From positions 1 through 37,952 of IMG/VR virus record IMGVR_UViG_3300046461_000020: a stretch of DNA of 37,952 nt; one strand, written 5' to 3'. Within the stretch, counting starts at the first letter, position 1, and each line of letters begins with the position of its first letter. Origin of the DNA: a virus. Below, one piece after another: positions 75 to 37,952 of this stretch. The translations under genes and the position numbers were made by a program. A model generated the notes under the pieces. It did no database searches. It was not told the origin of the DNA and was given only the letters and a program-made list of their open reading frames with translations.

Positions 75-314
75 GTGGATCTCAAGACATACATCAACAG
101 CGAGCGCGGCACGGCCACGAAACTGGCTGCAGCTATCGGCGTATCGCTTTCCTACCTGTCGCAGATGAGTGACGGTACGTCGGCCGTCAGTCCAAAGCGC
201 TGTGTCGCCATCGAAGAAGCCACGGAAGGATGCGTGACCCGCAAGGATCTGCGTCCTGACGACTGGTCGGACATCTGGCCCGAGCTTCGTTCGGAACAAC
301 CAGCCGCCGCCTGA
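75..314 (+). CDS. Cro/YdaS-like helix-turn-helix regulator
   Basis: A 79-aa protein, probably the Cro counterpart of the leftward repressor. A helix-turn-helix covers about residues 10-48 (KLAAAIGVSLSYLSQMSDG followed by SPKRCVAIEEAT). The C-terminal TRKDLRPDDWSDIWPEL is typical of YdaS/Cro-like phage regulators. The start is GTG, chosen because AAGGTGAGG (62-70) is well placed before it and it is the first start after PR. It should repress PR and PL by binding the GTTTAG-N6-CTAAAC operators. Family assignment is from sequence pattern, and the role is from position opposite the repressor. Confidence 0.85.
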   Translation: MDLKTYINSERGTATKLAAAIGVSLSYLSQMSDGTSAVSPKRCVAIEEATEGCVTRKDLRPDDWSDIWPELRSEQPAAA

Positions 315-394: not shown

Positions 395-856
395 ATGGGC
401 CTGAGAAAAGCCTACCAGTCGATGATCCGCGCCTTCAACGGTGGTGCGCCGGCAATGGCGGGAGCGCTCGGTATATCCGAAGCGTCGCTACAGAACCGGA
501 TCTACGAAGTGAAGGGCCAGGCGATTCAGACTGAAATGGCCCTCGCCATGCAGCGCCTGTCCGGCACGACGTTCTTTGCGGAAGCCATCGCTGAACAGTC
601 GGGCGGCATGTTCGTGTCTCTGCCCGAAGTCGACGACAACTGCGACAACGAGGAACTGCTCGCCAAGTTCACGCAGATCCTTTCCGACCTCGGCGAGCTG
701 GCTAAGACCCATACCGCGGCCATCGCAGACGGCATCGTCAACGACCGCGAGAAGCACGACCTCGAACAGGTCGCAGCAGCCGCGCACCGGCACATCCAGG
801 AGTTGCTGACGCTGACCTTCCGCATCTATTGCCCCAAGGGCGCGGTGGAGAAGTGA
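395..856 (+). CDS. YmfL/CII-like phage regulatory protein
   Basis: A 153-aa protein, second in the PR operon, where lambdoid phages encode CII. The N-terminal part (about residues 8-60) is helical and fits the YmfL/CII (CP76-like) regulators: FNGGAPAMAGALGISEASLQNRIYEVKG is a helix-turn-helix region. An acidic helical C-terminal half (about 75-140) could mediate oligomerisation. It probably acts in the lysis-lysogeny decision or early transcription. The 80-bp gap before it has no other ORF. No TTGC-N6-TTGC CII site was found nearby, so a CII-type mechanism is not shown. Confidence 0.7.
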   Translation: MGLRKAYQSMIRAFNGGAPAMAGALGISEASLQNRIYEVKGQAIQTEMALAMQRLSGTTFFAEAIAEQSGGMFVSLPEVDDNCDNEELLAKFTQILSDLGELAKTHTAAIADGIVNDREKHDLEQVAAAAHRHIQELLTLTFRIYCPKGAVEK

Positions 857-28313: not shown

Positions 28314-29372
28314 CTACGCCGACTTCGGAATTGCCAACCGGACGTTGCTGATCGGCACCGTCCGATCCTTGAAATAGATCTCGGTCGTTGACTTGTCGGC
28401 ATGCGCCGCGGCGATCATCAGAGCGTCGATATCGTAGCCGGCCTTCTTGGCATCCGTCAGCGATTTGGCCCGGATGTCCTTGATCGTATAACCGTACTTT
28501 TCCAGTTTTGCCCGGTTGCATGCCTCTCGCCAGACCTTCAGTGCTGAGGTGTCGCGCCATGCTTTGCCGTCTCGCGAATGGATGACAAACGGCCCTTTGA
28601 TCTTCCCGCTGGTGCGCGCCATTTCCAGCACGGCATCGATATCTGGCGTGATCGGCCAGTCGACTCTGGCCCCGCTCGAATCGCGTGTCTTGGAGGGGTG
28701 GAAGTGGATCACTCCGTTGTCGCGGTCGACCCAGTTGCTTTTCTCGTCCTCCCGCTTCCACCGCAATGCACGGATCTCTGTCGAGCGCTGCGCCGTCAGA
28801 TAGCACAGATCGACCAGGCACAGGATCATCGGATTGCGCTCCAGCTCGGCGCGGATCATCGCGAAATGCTCGTCCGTAATGTAGACGTCGCGCGGCTTGG
28901 GTATGCGAATACGGATGCCATTGCAGGGGTTTTCGCCGGGATAGTACCGCTGCTCCCGACACCACTGGAAAAAGCCGGTCAGGAAGGCGCGCATCGTGCG
29001 CTGCATGTTGATCTTCTCGCCCCAGTTCGAGCGCAGAAATTCAACGACGAACGCGTTATCGACCTGATCGATATTGACGTCCGCAAAACCGGTCTTGACG
29101 TAGTTCCCATATAGCGGCCACGCGCGCTCACGGTGCTCGGACCTTTTCTCGCGCACGTATTCGTCGACAAGGTGAGGCACATTGCCGATGCCGCTCAGCG
29201 ATTCACGCTTGCGCTTTTCAGCCGCAAGGCGCTCAAGCATTTTTAGCTCACCATCCTCGACGCGGCACAGTTTGATCCAGCTTCCAGCTTTCGGAAACCA
29301 GTAGTAGCTGCCACTTTTCTGATAGACCCGGTTCGGCAAGCCGTCGGGTATGGTGCGTCGACGCGCATTCAT
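28314..29372 (-). CDS. int: Tyrosine-type integrase
   Basis: A 352-aa tyrosine recombinase. The N-terminal 60 residues form a small arm-binding-type domain and about 65-155 a SAM-like core-binding domain. The catalytic domain has Arg196 (TAQRSTEI), Lys228 (SKTR), Arg301 (KDIRAKSLTD), His324 (AAAHADKSTTEIY) and Tyr333. The usual box II His is Lys298, a variant seen in other phage integrases. It integrates the phage at the host attB using the attP just downstream. It starts by ATGA overlap with the DUF4224 gene. Confidence 0.93.
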   Translation of the reverse strand: MNARRRTIPDGLPNRVYQKSGSYYWFPKAGSWIKLCRVEDGELKMLERLAAEKRKRESLSGIGNVPHLVDEYVREKRSEHRERAWPLYGNYVKTGFADVNIDQVDNAFVVEFLRSNWGEKINMQRTMRAFLTGFFQWCREQRYYPGENPCNGIRIRIPKPRDVYITDEHFAMIRAELERNPMILCLVDLCYLTAQRSTEIRALRWKREDEKSNWVDRDNGVIHFHPSKTRDSSGARVDWPITPDIDAVLEMARTSGKIKGPFVIHSRDGKAWRDTSALKVWREACNRAKLEKYGYTIKDIRAKSLTDAKKAGYDIDALMIAAAHADKSTTEIYFKDRTVPISNVRLAIPKSA

Positions 29373-31368: not shown

Positions 31369-32394
31369 TCAGGCGAACTCAAAGCCACGCTCGCGGATCC
31401 GATCGCGTTGCAGGGCTTCGTATGCCGGGTTCAATTCGCATCCGATGAACTGTCGGCCGAGCCGCGCGGCGACCTGCCCGGTGGTGCCGCTACCGAAAAA
31501 CGGATCGAACACAACGTCGCCGGCCCGCGAGCCCGCAAGCACGCATGGTTCGACGAGTGCTTCGGGGAAGGTGGCGAAGTGGGCGCCCGGGTATGCTTCA
31601 GTTGCGATCGTCCAGACGCTTCGGCGGTTCGCCGTCGAAAGATCGACCTCGCCGTCTGCGCGCGTCTTCTGAGCATAGGCAAGCAGTCCTGCCTTCGTTC
31701 TGTGTCGCTCGTCGCCGTCGGCGTATGCAACGGCGCCCTTCGGCGGGTTTACGTTGCCGGCCGTCTTGTACTTGTCGCGCGCTTTGAAGTTCATCGTGTC
31801 GAAAGACTGGATCTTCGTCTCGAGACTGGCAGGCACACGGATCGACGCCATATCGCAGTAGTAGCTCGAGCTCTTCGTGAGCAGGAAGATGTACTCGTGC
31901 GCCTTGGTGCAACGGTCCTGTACTGATTCCGGCATCGGGTTCGGCTTGTGCCATACGATGTCCTGCCGGAGATACCAGCCGGCGTCTTGCAGTGCGAACG
32001 CGAGGCGCCACGGCTGGCCCATCAAGTCTTTGGCCTTCAGACCGGTATAGCGCTTGGCGCGGCCGATCCCGCTGTCTCCATGAAGCGCTGCCACGTGCTT
32101 TCCGCCAGTTGATCCGCCCCATTTGCTGTCGTTCGCGTACGCGTCGCCCATATTCACCCATGCGGTACCGTCGTCGGCGAGCAGCTCGCGGCACAGTTCA
32201 AATACGCCCGTAAGCGTGTCGATGAATTCGCGCAGCGTCGGCTCGTGCCCGATCTGGCCGTCGACGCCATAGTCGCGCAAGCCCCAATACGGCGGCGATG
32301 TGACGATCGTCTGCACCTTTACGCCGTCGGCGATCATCGCGCGCATGGTGTCGCGGCAATCACCGAAGTGGCATTGATCGATCCAGTTGCTCAT
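31369..32394 (-). CDS. DNA methyltransferase, SPPY type
   Basis: A 341-aa amino-methyltransferase. The catalytic motif TSPPYWGLRDYG has SPPY at 33-36. The SAM-binding motif DPFFGSGTTG (297-306) follows at the C-terminal end, the beta-class order. An IVWHKPNPMPESVQDRCTKAHEYIFLLTKS segment fits N4-cytosine or N6-adenine enzymes. It modifies DNA on an amino group, probably to protect phage DNA from host restriction. No restriction gene is nearby, so it is an orphan. GAGGG precedes ATG 32394. The recognition site cannot be inferred. Confidence 0.9.
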   Translation of the reverse strand: MSNWIDQCHFGDCRDTMRAMIADGVKVQTIVTSPPYWGLRDYGVDGQIGHEPTLREFIDTLTGVFELCRELLADDGTAWVNMGDAYANDSKWGGSTGGKHVAALHGDSGIGRAKRYTGLKAKDLMGQPWRLAFALQDAGWYLRQDIVWHKPNPMPESVQDRCTKAHEYIFLLTKSSSYYCDMASIRVPASLETKIQSFDTMNFKARDKYKTAGNVNPPKGAVAYADGDERHRTKAGLLAYAQKTRADGEVDLSTANRRSVWTIATEAYPGAHFATFPEALVEPCVLAGSRAGDVVFDPFFGSGTTGQVAARLGRQFIGCELNPAYEALQRDRIRERGFEFA

Positions 32395-33095: not shown

Positions 33096-34088
33096 TTAGG
33101 CGCCGTTGATCACGTCGCGGCGGTCGTCGATCGCCTGCTTGAACTTCACGTATTCGGCTTCAGGAAGGCCGCGCCCGCTATCAAGAACCATGTCCAGCGT
33201 GTCGATATCGTTCGCCTTGTCGACCTGGCTGAGCAGCGTCACATAATCGAGCGTCGATGCCTGCTGCTGCGCACGCTGGTCGCTGATCTCACCAGTGGAT
33301 TGATCGACATAACCGTCGTCTACAGTCGTGAACTGTCCATCGATGACCGCACCGTTGTCCTGCGGCAGACCCATTTCCGCGCGCTCGTCGAGACCCACAG
33401 CGGTCTGAATCTCGATGCTCACCGGCAGGAACTTGAACAGGCGCCGCACGACCGTCTTGAGCGCCATGGCCTGATAGTCGGTCTTCCATGGGCCGCCGTT
33501 ACCGGCCTTGCTGCGGCCCCGGATAGCTTCCACTTCGGCCCGGCTCATGACGTCGAACTGAATGCCGCCATCCTTCAGCTTTGCCACTGCGTAGACGAAC
33601 TGGAGCTTGTCGCCCTGCGTCCGGTTCGGGTTATTCCAGTCCGGCTCATGTTCGATGTGCGGATCGAGACCAAGACGGCATTCGAACTTGTCACCTTCAT
33701 AGACGGCGCGCGCATCAATGCTCACGATCTGGCCGGAGCGTCGGGCGAGATCGATCATGCCGCGGTAGCCGATGATCAGTTGCACGTCCTTACCGTAGGG
33801 CAGCAGATAGGCGTGCCCGAGCGCATTGCCCGGTTCAAGCCCGAGCTGCGCGCACTGAATGACGGCACCGAAGAACGAGACGGGTGTGCATTCGGCCAGT
33901 TTCGGCACCTTGCGGATCTCGGTCGTGACGATGCGCGCGAGGCGTTCAGGCGTCATGTGGCGCGGCAAAGCGGCTTTGATCTGCGCCTGCATGCTTGGGC
34001 TTGCGAGCATGTGTGCGACCTTGTCGACGGGGGTCTTCGCGACTTCGCCGTTGCGGACATTCGAAAGGCTGGTGGTGGTCTGTGCCAC
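33096..34088 (-). CDS. recT: RecT-family single-strand annealing protein
   Basis: A 330-aa protein with clear RecT motifs: LARIVTTEIRKVPKLAECTPVSFFGAVIQCAQLGLEPGNALGHAYLLPYG and VQLIIGYRGMIDLARRSGQI, then EAIRGRSKAG and YQAMALKTVVRRLFKFLPVS. It anneals complementary single strands made by the nuclease encoded next to it. The start is GTG 34088 with GAGGA upstream. A nearer ATG is out of frame. The C-terminal 80 residues are acidic and specific to this phage. Confidence 0.92.
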   Translation of the reverse strand: MAQTTTSLSNVRNGEVAKTPVDKVAHMLASPSMQAQIKAALPRHMTPERLARIVTTEIRKVPKLAECTPVSFFGAVIQCAQLGLEPGNALGHAYLLPYGKDVQLIIGYRGMIDLARRSGQIVSIDARAVYEGDKFECRLGLDPHIEHEPDWNNPNRTQGDKLQFVYAVAKLKDGGIQFDVMSRAEVEAIRGRSKAGNGGPWKTDYQAMALKTVVRRLFKFLPVSIEIQTAVGLDERAEMGLPQDNGAVIDGQFTTVDDGYVDQSTGEISDQRAQQQASTLDYVTLLSQVDKANDIDTLDMVLDSGRGLPEAEYVKFKQAIDDRRDVINGA

Positions 34089-34092
34089 GGTG

Positions 34093-34905
34093 TCATTCCT
34101 CGGAAATTAAGGCCCACTGCGGGAGCCGGATCACATCAATGCCCGTCGAATACCCGGGCCACGTGTTGGTGCGCTCGCACTCGGCATACGTGCGCAGGTT
34201 CTTGCGGTACTTCTGGCGGCCGGCTTCAAGGCTTTCCTCGTCGAGCATGAAAGCGTTGGCGGCGTAGGGGTATTCGGTTTCCACAGCGACGAACACGAAG
34301 CCGAGAACGCGCCGGCCGCTGGCTGCTGAATATCCGTCGCTGTAGAACGCTGCCTGGACGTCGTAGCGCTTCCGTGCGACCTGCTTCCGGAACTCGTGCG
34401 GGCTCGCGCTCGAATAGGTCTTCAGATCGAGCAAAATCACACCCGCTTCGCCGCAGTCGTTCACCCAGTCAGGCCGGCAGCGGCACTTGACGCCCGTTTC
34501 TTCGTCAGTCCAGAAGGCCGACACTTCAGCCTTCCCATTAGCCAGCGCTTCGCCGATCTCCGGCAGCGCGCGCACCGATACCGCCTGGCGAATTGCCGCC
34601 TCGTACTGGTCGTTCTGGATCGCCACACGGTTCGGATTCGCTTCGACGAACTCTTTCCAGACCTTCGTATTGCGATTGACCGACGGACCGACGACATAGC
34701 GCGACTCGAATTCATCCGGCTCCAGCACGGCGCAATGCGCCAGATTCCCTTCAAGCTGCCCGGACTTGGTCACGGGCGCCGGCCGGTTCGGATCGCGGTG
34801 CCGCGCATAGAAGATCGCCGGCGACAGGTCGAGCGTGTCGAGTTGCGACTTCGATACCTCTGGCATCGCGTGGTACTCATCGATGTTCAGGTAGTTGTGG
34901 ATCAC
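34093..34905 (-). CDS. Exonuclease VIII/RecE-like nuclease
   Basis: A 270-aa PD-(D/E)XK nuclease. The N-terminal motif GNLAHCAVLEPDEFESRYV has His57. The active site continues with Asp146 (CRPDWV), Asp160-Leu-Lys162 (LLDLKTYSS) and Tyr181/Gln184 (KRYDVQAAFY). It digests linear double-stranded DNA from one strand for RecT-mediated recombination. I chose GTG 34905 (GGAG six bases upstream, GTGA overlap with the tiny membrane gene). The longer track ORF begins in unrelated codons of two upstream genes. Confidence 0.88.
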   Translation of the reverse strand: MIHNYLNIDEYHAMPEVSKSQLDTLDLSPAIFYARHRDPNRPAPVTKSGQLEGNLAHCAVLEPDEFESRYVVGPSVNRNTKVWKEFVEANPNRVAIQNDQYEAAIRQAVSVRALPEIGEALANGKAEVSAFWTDEETGVKCRCRPDWVNDCGEAGVILLDLKTYSSASPHEFRKQVARKRYDVQAAFYSDGYSAASGRRVLGFVFVAVETEYPYAANAFMLDEESLEAGRQKYRKNLRTYAECERTNTWPGYSTGIDVIRLPQWALISEE

Positions 34906-35009
34906 ATCAAACTCCGTTGAGCCGCAAGAATCACGAACGCGGCGAGCGTCCCGAGAATCACGGCGAGGACAGGGCGCGCGTCGAGGTAGGCAGAGAAGCG
35001 GCGGATCAT
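34902..35009 (-). CDS. Tiny single-TM membrane protein (35 aa)
   Basis: A 35-aa protein, MIRRFSAYLDARP then a hydrophobic stretch VLAVILGTLAAFVILAA and QRSLM. GGAGTG lies five to six bases before ATG 35009. The ATG overlaps the upstream stop (ATGA), and the TGA overlaps the GTG start of the nuclease gene. Such coupling on both sides makes it very likely to be translated. It is too short for the usual size filter. Function unknown. Confidence 0.7.
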   Translation of the reverse strand: MIRRFSAYLDARPVLAVILGTLAAFVILAAQRSLM

Positions 35010-35431
35010 TGCGGCACTCCAAGGCGCGTCAGCGTCTCGAACAACTCATCGGCGTCCTTGAATACAGAGCGAGCGTCTTCCCTCGTTGCCATATCGAGGT
35101 AGTGATAGTCGTACAGGTGGTTGTAATCGCAGCCAACCTGCACCGACACGACGTTGCTCTCGTTATCGCGGTGATATCCGAGGTACGAACAGCCGCCGTG
35201 CCAGTCGAAGAAATTCGAAGCGTCCTGCCACATCGAATTGCCTTCGAATTTCGAGAACTGCGGATGCTTCGGGTAAATGAAGGCATAGAGGCACCATTTG
35301 TGCTCGACACGCCCCGTCTTGACGAACTCGCCATCCCTCACATCGAATCCTTCATCGGAGTGCCGACTGACCTTCACGAGGAAGTTCTGACCGCGCTTGG
35401 TCCATTCGTCTTTGTGTCTCCAGTCGCTCAC
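35006..35431 (-). CDS. Hypothetical aromatic-rich early-left protein
   Basis: A 141-aa protein rich in aromatic residues and His: WCLYAFIYPKHPQFSKFEGNSMWQDASNFFDWHGGCSYLGYHRDNESNVVSVQVGCDYNHLYDYHYLDM. Such sequences occur as hypothetical proteins in several phages. Function unknown. The start is GTG 35431, overlapping the previous TGA (GTGA). Confidence 0.65.
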   Translation of the reverse strand: MSDWRHKDEWTKRGQNFLVKVSRHSDEGFDVRDGEFVKTGRVEHKWCLYAFIYPKHPQFSKFEGNSMWQDASNFFDWHGGCSYLGYHRDNESNVVSVQVGCDYNHLYDYHYLDMATREDARSVFKDADELFETLTRLGVPQ

Positions 35432-37092: not shown

Positions 37093-37121
37093 AGATTAGC
37101 AATCACTAAACCGTGAGTCAA
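37093..37121 (-). promoter_or_regulatory. Predicted early leftward promoter PL
   Basis: On this strand TTGACT (37116-37121) is separated by 17 bp from TAATCT (37093-37098), with a TGC extended -10 in front. The sequence around the -35 (CTTGACTCACGGTTTAG) closely matches PR (CTTGACCCACCGTTTAG). Operators cover the -10 and the -35 box. The first ORF starts at 37056. Confidence 0.65.
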
Positions 37122-37134
37122 GTAAAGACTAAAC
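37094..37134. promoter_or_regulatory. Operator pair at PL
   Basis: Two sites match the GTTTAG-N6-CTAAAC pattern. GATTAG-CAATCA-CTAAAC (37094-37111) has one mismatch and overlaps the -10. GTCAAG-TAAAGA-CTAAAC (37117-37134) has two mismatches and overlaps the -35. Each keeps the perfect CTAAAC half-site and the 6-bp spacer, and their centres are 23 bp apart. Confidence 0.6.
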
Positions 37135-37200: not shown

Positions 37201-37380
37201 TCAGTGGCAGTGGGACGTGATGACGCGAACGGCCATCAGCAGGTGATGCGCAATTTCATTCAGCAAGTCTTCGGTCTCTTCGCGGCTGGGAGGCAGTTTA
37301 AGTTTGTGGCCGACGCTCTTGCGTGATCTGTAGGAGTCGAGGTCTATGACTTCGTCACTTTTTTCGGCGCTTGATTGCAT
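37201..37380 (-). CDS. Small gene behind the repressor (59 aa)
   Basis: A 59-aa protein, charged at first (MQSSAEKSDEVIDLDSYRSR), then with an amphipathic helix (REETEDLLNEIAHHLLMAVRVIT) and a His/Cys end (SHCH). AGAGG lies nine bases before ATG 37380. It overlaps the repressor end by 26 bases and is cotranscribed with it, so it should be expressed in lysogens. It is shorter than the usual size filter. A partner or antagonist of the repressor, or an exclusion protein, is possible. Confidence 0.55.
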   Translation of the reverse strand: MQSSAEKSDEVIDLDSYRSRKSVGHKLKLPPSREETEDLLNEIAHHLLMAVRVITSHCH

Positions 37381-37801
37381 GTGAGGGATCCTCTCGTATT
37401 GCAGCGCTGAGCTGCTGCTCGGCTAACCGGAATTCATCTATCCCGGATGAACCATTGTGAGGGACCGGTAAGGAGTTCGCAATCTGCAGAATTCCCGTGA
37501 TCATCGGAAACATTTTTCGGGCCGGATCGCTAATGGCGTCCAGACGGGTGATCCACTGAATGAGGTTCAAAGCGTCGGCGGTAAGAGGCACTTTTTGGCT
37601 TGTATTCGACGAATCGATGCCTTCGTCAGAATCCAAAAAACCACTGCCCATTCCATAGTCGGCCTCAAGCCGACGAGCTAGCCGCTCGCCAAACGAACCC
37701 CCGGCCTTGATTTGTGAGAACAGGCTTTTGTCCTTCGCAGGAGCTGAGTGTGTTTCAAGCCAGCGCTGAAGGTTAGCGCGGCGGATGTCTTGAATGTCCA
37801 T
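37355..37801 (-). CDS. Prophage repressor (CI-like, short form)
   Basis: A 148-aa protein. The N-terminal 60 residues (IRRANLQRWLETHSAPAKDKSLFSQIKAGGSFGERLARRLEADYGMGSGFLD) fit the helix-turn-helix domain of CI-like repressors. The C-terminal part is helical and lacks a visible LexA-type peptidase: there is no Ala-Gly cleavage site with Ser and Lys catalytic residues. It should bind GTTTAG-N6-CTAAAC operators to hold PR and PL closed. RecA-stimulated self-cleavage seems unlikely. The start ATG 37801 follows an operator by eight bases and has little Shine-Dalgarno. Confidence 0.8.
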   Translation of the reverse strand: MDIQDIRRANLQRWLETHSAPAKDKSLFSQIKAGGSFGERLARRLEADYGMGSGFLDSDEGIDSSNTSQKVPLTADALNLIQWITRLDAISDPARKMFPMITGILQIANSLPVPHNGSSGIDEFRLAEQQLSAAIREDPSHAIKRRKK

Positions 37802-37808
37802 GGCGCAA

Positions 37809-37826
37809 GTTTAGTTTCTTCTAAAT
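37809..37826. promoter_or_regulatory. Operator next to the repressor start codon
   Basis: GTTTAG-TTTCTT-CTAAAT has one mismatch to the consensus. It lies between the possible repressor promoter and its ATG (37801), so a bound protein would block repressor transcription. This could give negative autoregulation or Cro action. Confidence 0.6.
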
Positions 37827-37855
37827 TAGTATTCACTTGACCCACCGTTTAGCAA
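37826..37855 (-). promoter_or_regulatory. Possible repressor maintenance promoter
   Basis: On this strand TTGCTA (37850-37855) and TACTAA (37826-37831) are 18 bp apart. The predicted start is near 37820, 20 bases before the repressor ATG. The -35 lies in the PR operator, as in lambda PRM. The match to consensus is poor. Confidence 0.35.
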
Positions 37856-37952
37856 GTACTAAACTGCCTCTAAATCAACCTTCCCCAAGGTGAGGCACTG
37901 TGGATCTCAAGACATACATCAACAGCGAGCGCGGCACGGCCACGAAACTGGC
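37826..37952. repeat. Terminal direct repeat, right copy
   Basis: Identical to positions 1-127. It contains the PR promoter, the perfect operator (37847-37864) and the first 53 bases of the Cro-like gene. Joining the ends restores a continuous repressor-operator-Cro region. Confidence 0.95.

Follow-up and report, generated by a model that had tools for sequence, protein, structure and literature searches.

The key question raised by this locus is whether a repressor gene and a divergent gene for a YdaS-type Cro form a genetic switch around one shared operator, GTTTAG-N6-CTAAAC. The locus lies on a virus contig from IMG/VR, the whole 37,952 nucleotides of which are referred to here as the window. 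Bases 1–127 of the window were found by sequence comparison to be identical to bases 37826–37952, so the window represents a circularised genome of ~37,825 bp that was cut within the early control (PR) region; the PR features are consequently duplicated, and the site at 22–39 is the same as that at 37847–37864. The phage is temperate and organised like lambda. Behind PR lie, rightward, the genes for the YdaS-type Cro, a CP76-type CII, a DUF1376 replication protein and a DnaB-like helicase, followed later by terminase and portal, while the genes behind PL are given in Table 1 together with the elements of the control region. Among named genomes, those of Burkholderia, Massilia and Caballeronia have the closest repressor domains, so the host is probably a member of the Burkholderiales, a beta-proteobacterium.

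Table 1. Features of the control region and neighbouring genes, in window coordinates
Feature	Position	Strand	Evidence or remark
YdaS-type Cro, 79 aa, GTG start	75..314	+	PF15943, E = 2e-15; PDB Cro 8co2/8c7k, E ~1e-19
CP76-type CII	395..856	+	PF06892, E = 4e-16; phrog_101
Integrase	28314-29372	-	behind PL
DNA methyltransferase	31369-32394	-	behind PL
RecT	33096-34088	-	behind PL
Exonuclease VIII (RecE-like)	34093-35022	-	behind PL
PL promoter CTTGACTCACGGTTTAG: TTGACT 37121-37116, 17-bp spacer, TAATCT 37098-37093	37093..37121	-	conserved in relatives
OL1, operator over PL spacer and −10	37094..37111		1 mismatch; matrix score 25.4, genome best
OL2, GTTTAG-N6-CTTGAC (minus strand) over PL −35	37117..37134		2 mismatches; matrix score 14.7, fourth best
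p59, conserved 59-aa ORF overlapping repressor end by 26 bp	37201..37380	-	homologues in L011-L017, L027, L159-L178
Repressor, 148 aa, PaaR2-type DNA-binding domain, without S24 peptidase	37355..37801	-	profile and fold match
PRM promoter GTGAAT-17-TAAACT	37808..37836	-	TAAACT-N6-ATG invariant in Burkholderiales-type loci
OR3, operator GTTTAGTTTCTTCTAAAT over PRM −10	37809..37826		1 mismatch; matrix score 22.7, third best
OR2, weak operator AATTAGTATTCACTTGAC, AATTAG-N6-CTTGAC, over PR −35 and PRM −35	37824..37841		matrix score 12.6, fifth best
PR promoter CTTGACCCACCGTTTAG: TTGACC 37837-37842, 17-bp spacer, TAAACT 37860-37865	37837..37865	+	TTGAC and TAAACT region conserved
OR1, perfect operator GTTTAGCAAGTACTAAAC over PR spacer and −10	37847..37864 (= 22-39)		matrix score 24.8, second best

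An earlier sequence-only reading had proposed the switch, and all of the sequences it listed lie where it placed them, including the PR and PL promoters with their 17-bp spacers. It had also called for a search for the operator elsewhere in the genome. The circular genome contains five exact copies of GTTTAG, all of which fall in 178 bp of control DNA at PR or PL, an arrangement with a naive probability of ~2e-12. A search with the bare operator pattern and up to 3 mismatches gave 7 matches where 4.8 were expected, a count reached by 18 of 100 shuffles and not above chance. The sites were therefore tested by location and against relatives, a set of about 60 loci that come mostly from beta- and gamma-proteobacteria.

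For this comparison we used a symmetric weight matrix derived from sites flanking the PR −35 in 50 other loci, excluding the window itself and the loci nearly identical to it; the training sites were the best palindrome match at three permitted offsets, and the matrix is somewhat shaped by that choice. Scanning the genome with the matrix placed the five operators of Table 1 on top, with the sixth site scoring 7.1; in each of 60 simulated genomes the fifth-ranked site scored 7.7 or less. The top five were unchanged when the matrix was derived from enterobacterial loci alone or from loci with S24 repressors alone. The matrix consensus GTTTAGTAATTACTAAAC also agrees with the GTTTAGTAA inverted repeats that lie under the DNase I footprints of PaaR2 and YdaS (PMC8630535). 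The four operators with 6-bp spacers named in the sequence-only reading are thus all present, but the full number is five, OR2 having been missed.

All five sites overlap promoter elements. OL2 is an imperfect palindrome with a left arm, GTCAAG, that is the complement of the PL −35, and the overlap of OR2 with the PR −35 mirrors this arrangement. Both sites are weak and overlap −35 hexamers, and part of their conservation is promoter conservation. This could be extended to the whole set: a −10 lies inside OR1, OL1 and OR3 and a −35 inside OR2 and OL2, the loose pattern is found at chance level, and the conserved blocks might be mainly promoter elements that resemble operators since TAAACT is part of GTTTAG-N6-CTAAAC, with no dedicated operator set at all. 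We consider this very unlikely, because the conserved GTTTAG left arms of OR1 and of both PL sites fall in spacers or upstream of the −35, where no promoter element is expected, and because YdaS loci with other repressors have promoters there without these repeats.

Across 17 aligned Burkholderiales-type loci, conservation of at least 80% was found at 37 of 51 operator positions as against 3 of 24 other positions. The OR2-type site is conserved among Burkholderiales-type loci, OL1 is conserved at the PL of relatives, the OL2-type element also occurs in many relatives and in E. coli O157:H7, and most relatives have a second operator cluster downstream of the repressor. A blastn search of the control region against phage records gave no match. 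The best-studied relative is located in a cryptic prophage (PMC8630535), which raises the possibility that the control region is a decayed remnant of a defective phage and no longer a working switch; with a genome that closes on itself, terminase, portal, integrase and replication genes in place, and the same operators retained by several close relatives, this is hardly credible.

The promoter of the repressor gene is best placed with its −10 at 37808–37813, six bases ahead of the repressor ATG (37801), and the repressor mRNA is predicted from the sequence to be leaderless. The −35 of this promoter, GTGAAT, is a poor match. With PRM placed in this way, OR3 covers the PRM −10, OR2 the back-to-back −35s and OR1 the PR −10. 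The sequence-only reading had the perfect site covering PR and a possible repressor −35; it does cover the PR spacer and −10, but a repressor −35 within it was rejected, as there is no conserved −10 at the proper distance and the Burkholderiales-type relatives all have TAAACT-N6-ATG. Similarly, the stretch CTTGAC(C/T)CAC(C/G)GTTTAG described as shared by PR and PL is present in both, but the CAC(C/G) between the −35 and GTTTAG is not conserved in relatives. A second layout is seen in most enterobacterial loci: the PRM −10 reads CAAAAT or GATAAT, and OR3 takes up the PRM spacer. In several relatives (L015, L016, L102–L105, L107 and L115) the cro ATG is just 6–7 bases past the PR −10, so that cro also may be leaderless there; the cro of the window has a leader and a GTG start.

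The protein that would read these sites from the lysogenic side is a PaaR2-type repressor. Its first 60 residues match the solved N-terminal domain of PaaR2 (7nkv/8c3k) with a profile E of 5e-28, and the best Foldseek matches of a modest-confidence repressor model were 8c3k, 7nkv and 8c3l, with 8c3k giving a TM of 0.87 by target length and an E of only 2.8e-3. Both structure models, one of them made from an alignment without annotated public records, have low confidence beyond the DNA-binding domain (pTM 0.36–0.37), and the C-terminal fold supports no claim. A literature search found no paper naming PDB 7nkv, 8c3k or 8c3l. Neither the repressor nor p59 matched any Pfam family, and hence no S24 peptidase match was found in the repressor; the “short CI-like repressor” of the earlier reading is right in kind, and its “YdaS-like Cro” is borne out by the Pfam match. 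The Cro also matches phage Cro structures that have been solved.

Residues on both proteins go with the operator. Within the repressor alignment S26, S29 and Q30 are invariant. Residues S24, S26, S29 and Q30 of the Cro helix are identical in all 39 of the 39 Cros paired with PaaR2-type repressors, while the YdaS proteins of other loci have S26 in 7 of 56 cases and Q30 in 25 of 56. When YdaS loci were found via Cro, two or more sites were present at 12 of 22 loci with a PaaR2-like domain (E ≤ 1e-3) and at 1 of 58 others (Fisher p = 1.2e-7), although the relatives cannot be counted as independent, since six of those 12 are near-copies of the window locus. The 12 site-bearing PaaR2-like loci all score >100 bits, as against ≤33 for the ten that lack sites, a split that was noticed afterwards. 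The operators are kept with short repressors (36 of 37) and with repressors carrying an S24-type motif (23 of 24), and S24-type repressors do occur among relatives with these operators, Pfam confirming S24 in four. Across these sequences the operator follows the repressor N-terminal domain and the Cro recognition helix, not the repressor C-terminal domain.

It could still be that only the repressor reads GTTTAG and that YdaS binds elsewhere or acts otherwise, which would make this an autoregulated circuit of one protein in place of a double-negative switch of the Cro type. YdaS was once classed as a toxin, its Pfam family is still named “YdaS toxin” and overproduced Rac YdaS is toxic (PMC5700373). 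However, the YdaS of CP-933P, a cryptic prophage of E. coli O157:H7, protects the same repeats in footprints and acts as a repressor of both PRM and PR (PMC8630535), and the recognition helix of YdaS proteins is associated with the type of operator. At one locus, L031 (3900–4070), the repressor has a different DNA-binding domain (S24 type), yet the GTTTAG operators are retained along with the Cro helix of the GTTTAG type; this suggests direct reading of the site by Cro. We therefore regard a circuit run by the repressor alone as improbable.

The region is very probably an immunity region of the PaaR2–YdaS type, in which the repressor and a YdaS-type Cro would read a shared 18-bp operator at PR, PRM and PL; the divergent switch with paired PR and PL operators put forward in the sequence-only reading is supported by the sequence and by the relatives. 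In CP-933P both the repressor and Cro bind the control region, with Cro occupying the PRM side first, and low repressor activates PRM while repressing PR and PL (PMC8630535). Bistability was demonstrated for that PaaR2/YdaS switch, which has the same operator half-site, with single cells adopting two heritable states (PMC8630535). The arrangement of the window is compatible with each of these steps. By analogy we infer binding, binding order, autoactivation and bistability in the present phage. A repressor dimer and Cro would each recognise GTTTAG-N6-CTAAAC; in lysogeny the repressor would fill the PR- and PL-side sites, closing both promoters, and would probably activate the weak promoter of its own leaderless message. 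During lytic growth, Cro would bind first on the PRM side, at OR3, shutting off the repressor, and would next damp PR and PL. SOS cleavage is unlikely because the repressor has no S24 domain; PaaR2, also without this domain, is unresponsive to mitomycin C (PMC8630535).

The 59-aa reading frame at the end of the repressor gene, p59, follows a different part of the protein. The p59 relatives that were found all neighbour repressors carrying this non-peptidase C-terminal domain, including some with other N-terminal domains, and they overlap the repressor by 11–38 bp wherever the repressor could be read. PHROGs gave nothing useful for p59. A natural domain swap separates the two associations: in L169 and L170 the repressors are almost the same in the C-terminal domain and unrelated in the N-terminal one, L170 combining a PaaR2-type domain with GTTTAG sites and L169 another helix-turn-helix domain with TTAGG-type repeats. 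The type of operator is therefore tied to the N-terminal domain, and p59 to the C-terminal domain. The same pairing was noted for L169/L171 versus L170/L013.

That p59 is a repressor partner or an antirepressor is a guess. A wider reading, which we offer tentatively and think rather doubtful, is that the repressor consists of two modules. One, a portable specificity cassette common to many phages of beta- and gamma-proteobacteria, would comprise the N-terminal domain, the operators with GTTTAG and the Cro helix; the other, replacing SOS cleavage, would comprise the non-peptidase C-terminal domain and p59, with p59 as a dedicated partner controlling repressor assembly or release. If this were true, cross-immunity would be predicted between otherwise unrelated phages.

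With this analysis, a switch studied experimentally in a single cryptic prophage of E. coli becomes part of a family conserved in beta- and gamma-proteobacteria. Particular residues of the proteins are paired with particular DNA sites in this family, which would allow immunity groups to be predicted from sequence. It also raises the question of how phages with the same operators but a non-cleavable repressor are induced, for which p59 is a concrete candidate. A literature search on YdaS operators in Burkholderia prophages found no papers. The new details are the Burkholderiales-type PRM layout, the conserved, overlapping p59 gene accompanying the non-peptidase C-terminal domain, and the fifth operator.

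On the comparison of sequences, the switch of the window belongs to the PaaR2–YdaS kind that has already been demonstrated, and it is real and not surprising. The E. coli O157:H7 locus, with PaaR2, RelB-like, ParE-like, YdaS and YdaT, has sites of this kind at both PR and PL. CP-933P and the window each have a short non-S24 repressor with matching DNA-binding domain and a YdaS-type Cro; inverted repeats of 18 bp that carry the GTTTAG half-site lie over PR, PRM and PL, and GTTTAG-N6-CTTGAC stands beside a full repeat at PL. In both the repressor ATG is at the expected PRM start: the mapped PRM start of CP-933P is the PaaR2 start codon, giving a leaderless message (PMC8630535), and the same is predicted here. 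The differences are that CII is of the CP76 type here and YdaT in CP-933P, that paaA2-parE2 is absent and a p59 gene follows the repressor instead, that the repressor has 148 aa and not 123 aa, that OR3 occupies the PRM spacer in E. coli and the PRM −10 here, and that the host is here probably a beta-proteobacterium. Given the CP76-type CII and the missing paaA2-parE2, the region is no copy of CP-933P. The RacR-YdaS-YdaT region of the Rac prophage of E. coli K-12 likewise has divergent genes for its repressor and a YdaS-type Cro, separated by a gap that contains several repeats, but these are GCCTAA/TTAGGC variants and those of the window are GTTTAG/CTAAAC (PMC5700373). The layout is also that of lambda CI-Cro, with divergent PR and PRM and a second operator cluster at PL; shared operators for repressor and Cro and a leaderless repressor mRNA are further likenesses, both predicted in the window. 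It differs from lambda in the repressor, which has no S24 peptidase domain, in the operator sequence and Cro family, and in the unequal spacing of the operators (15 and 23 bp).
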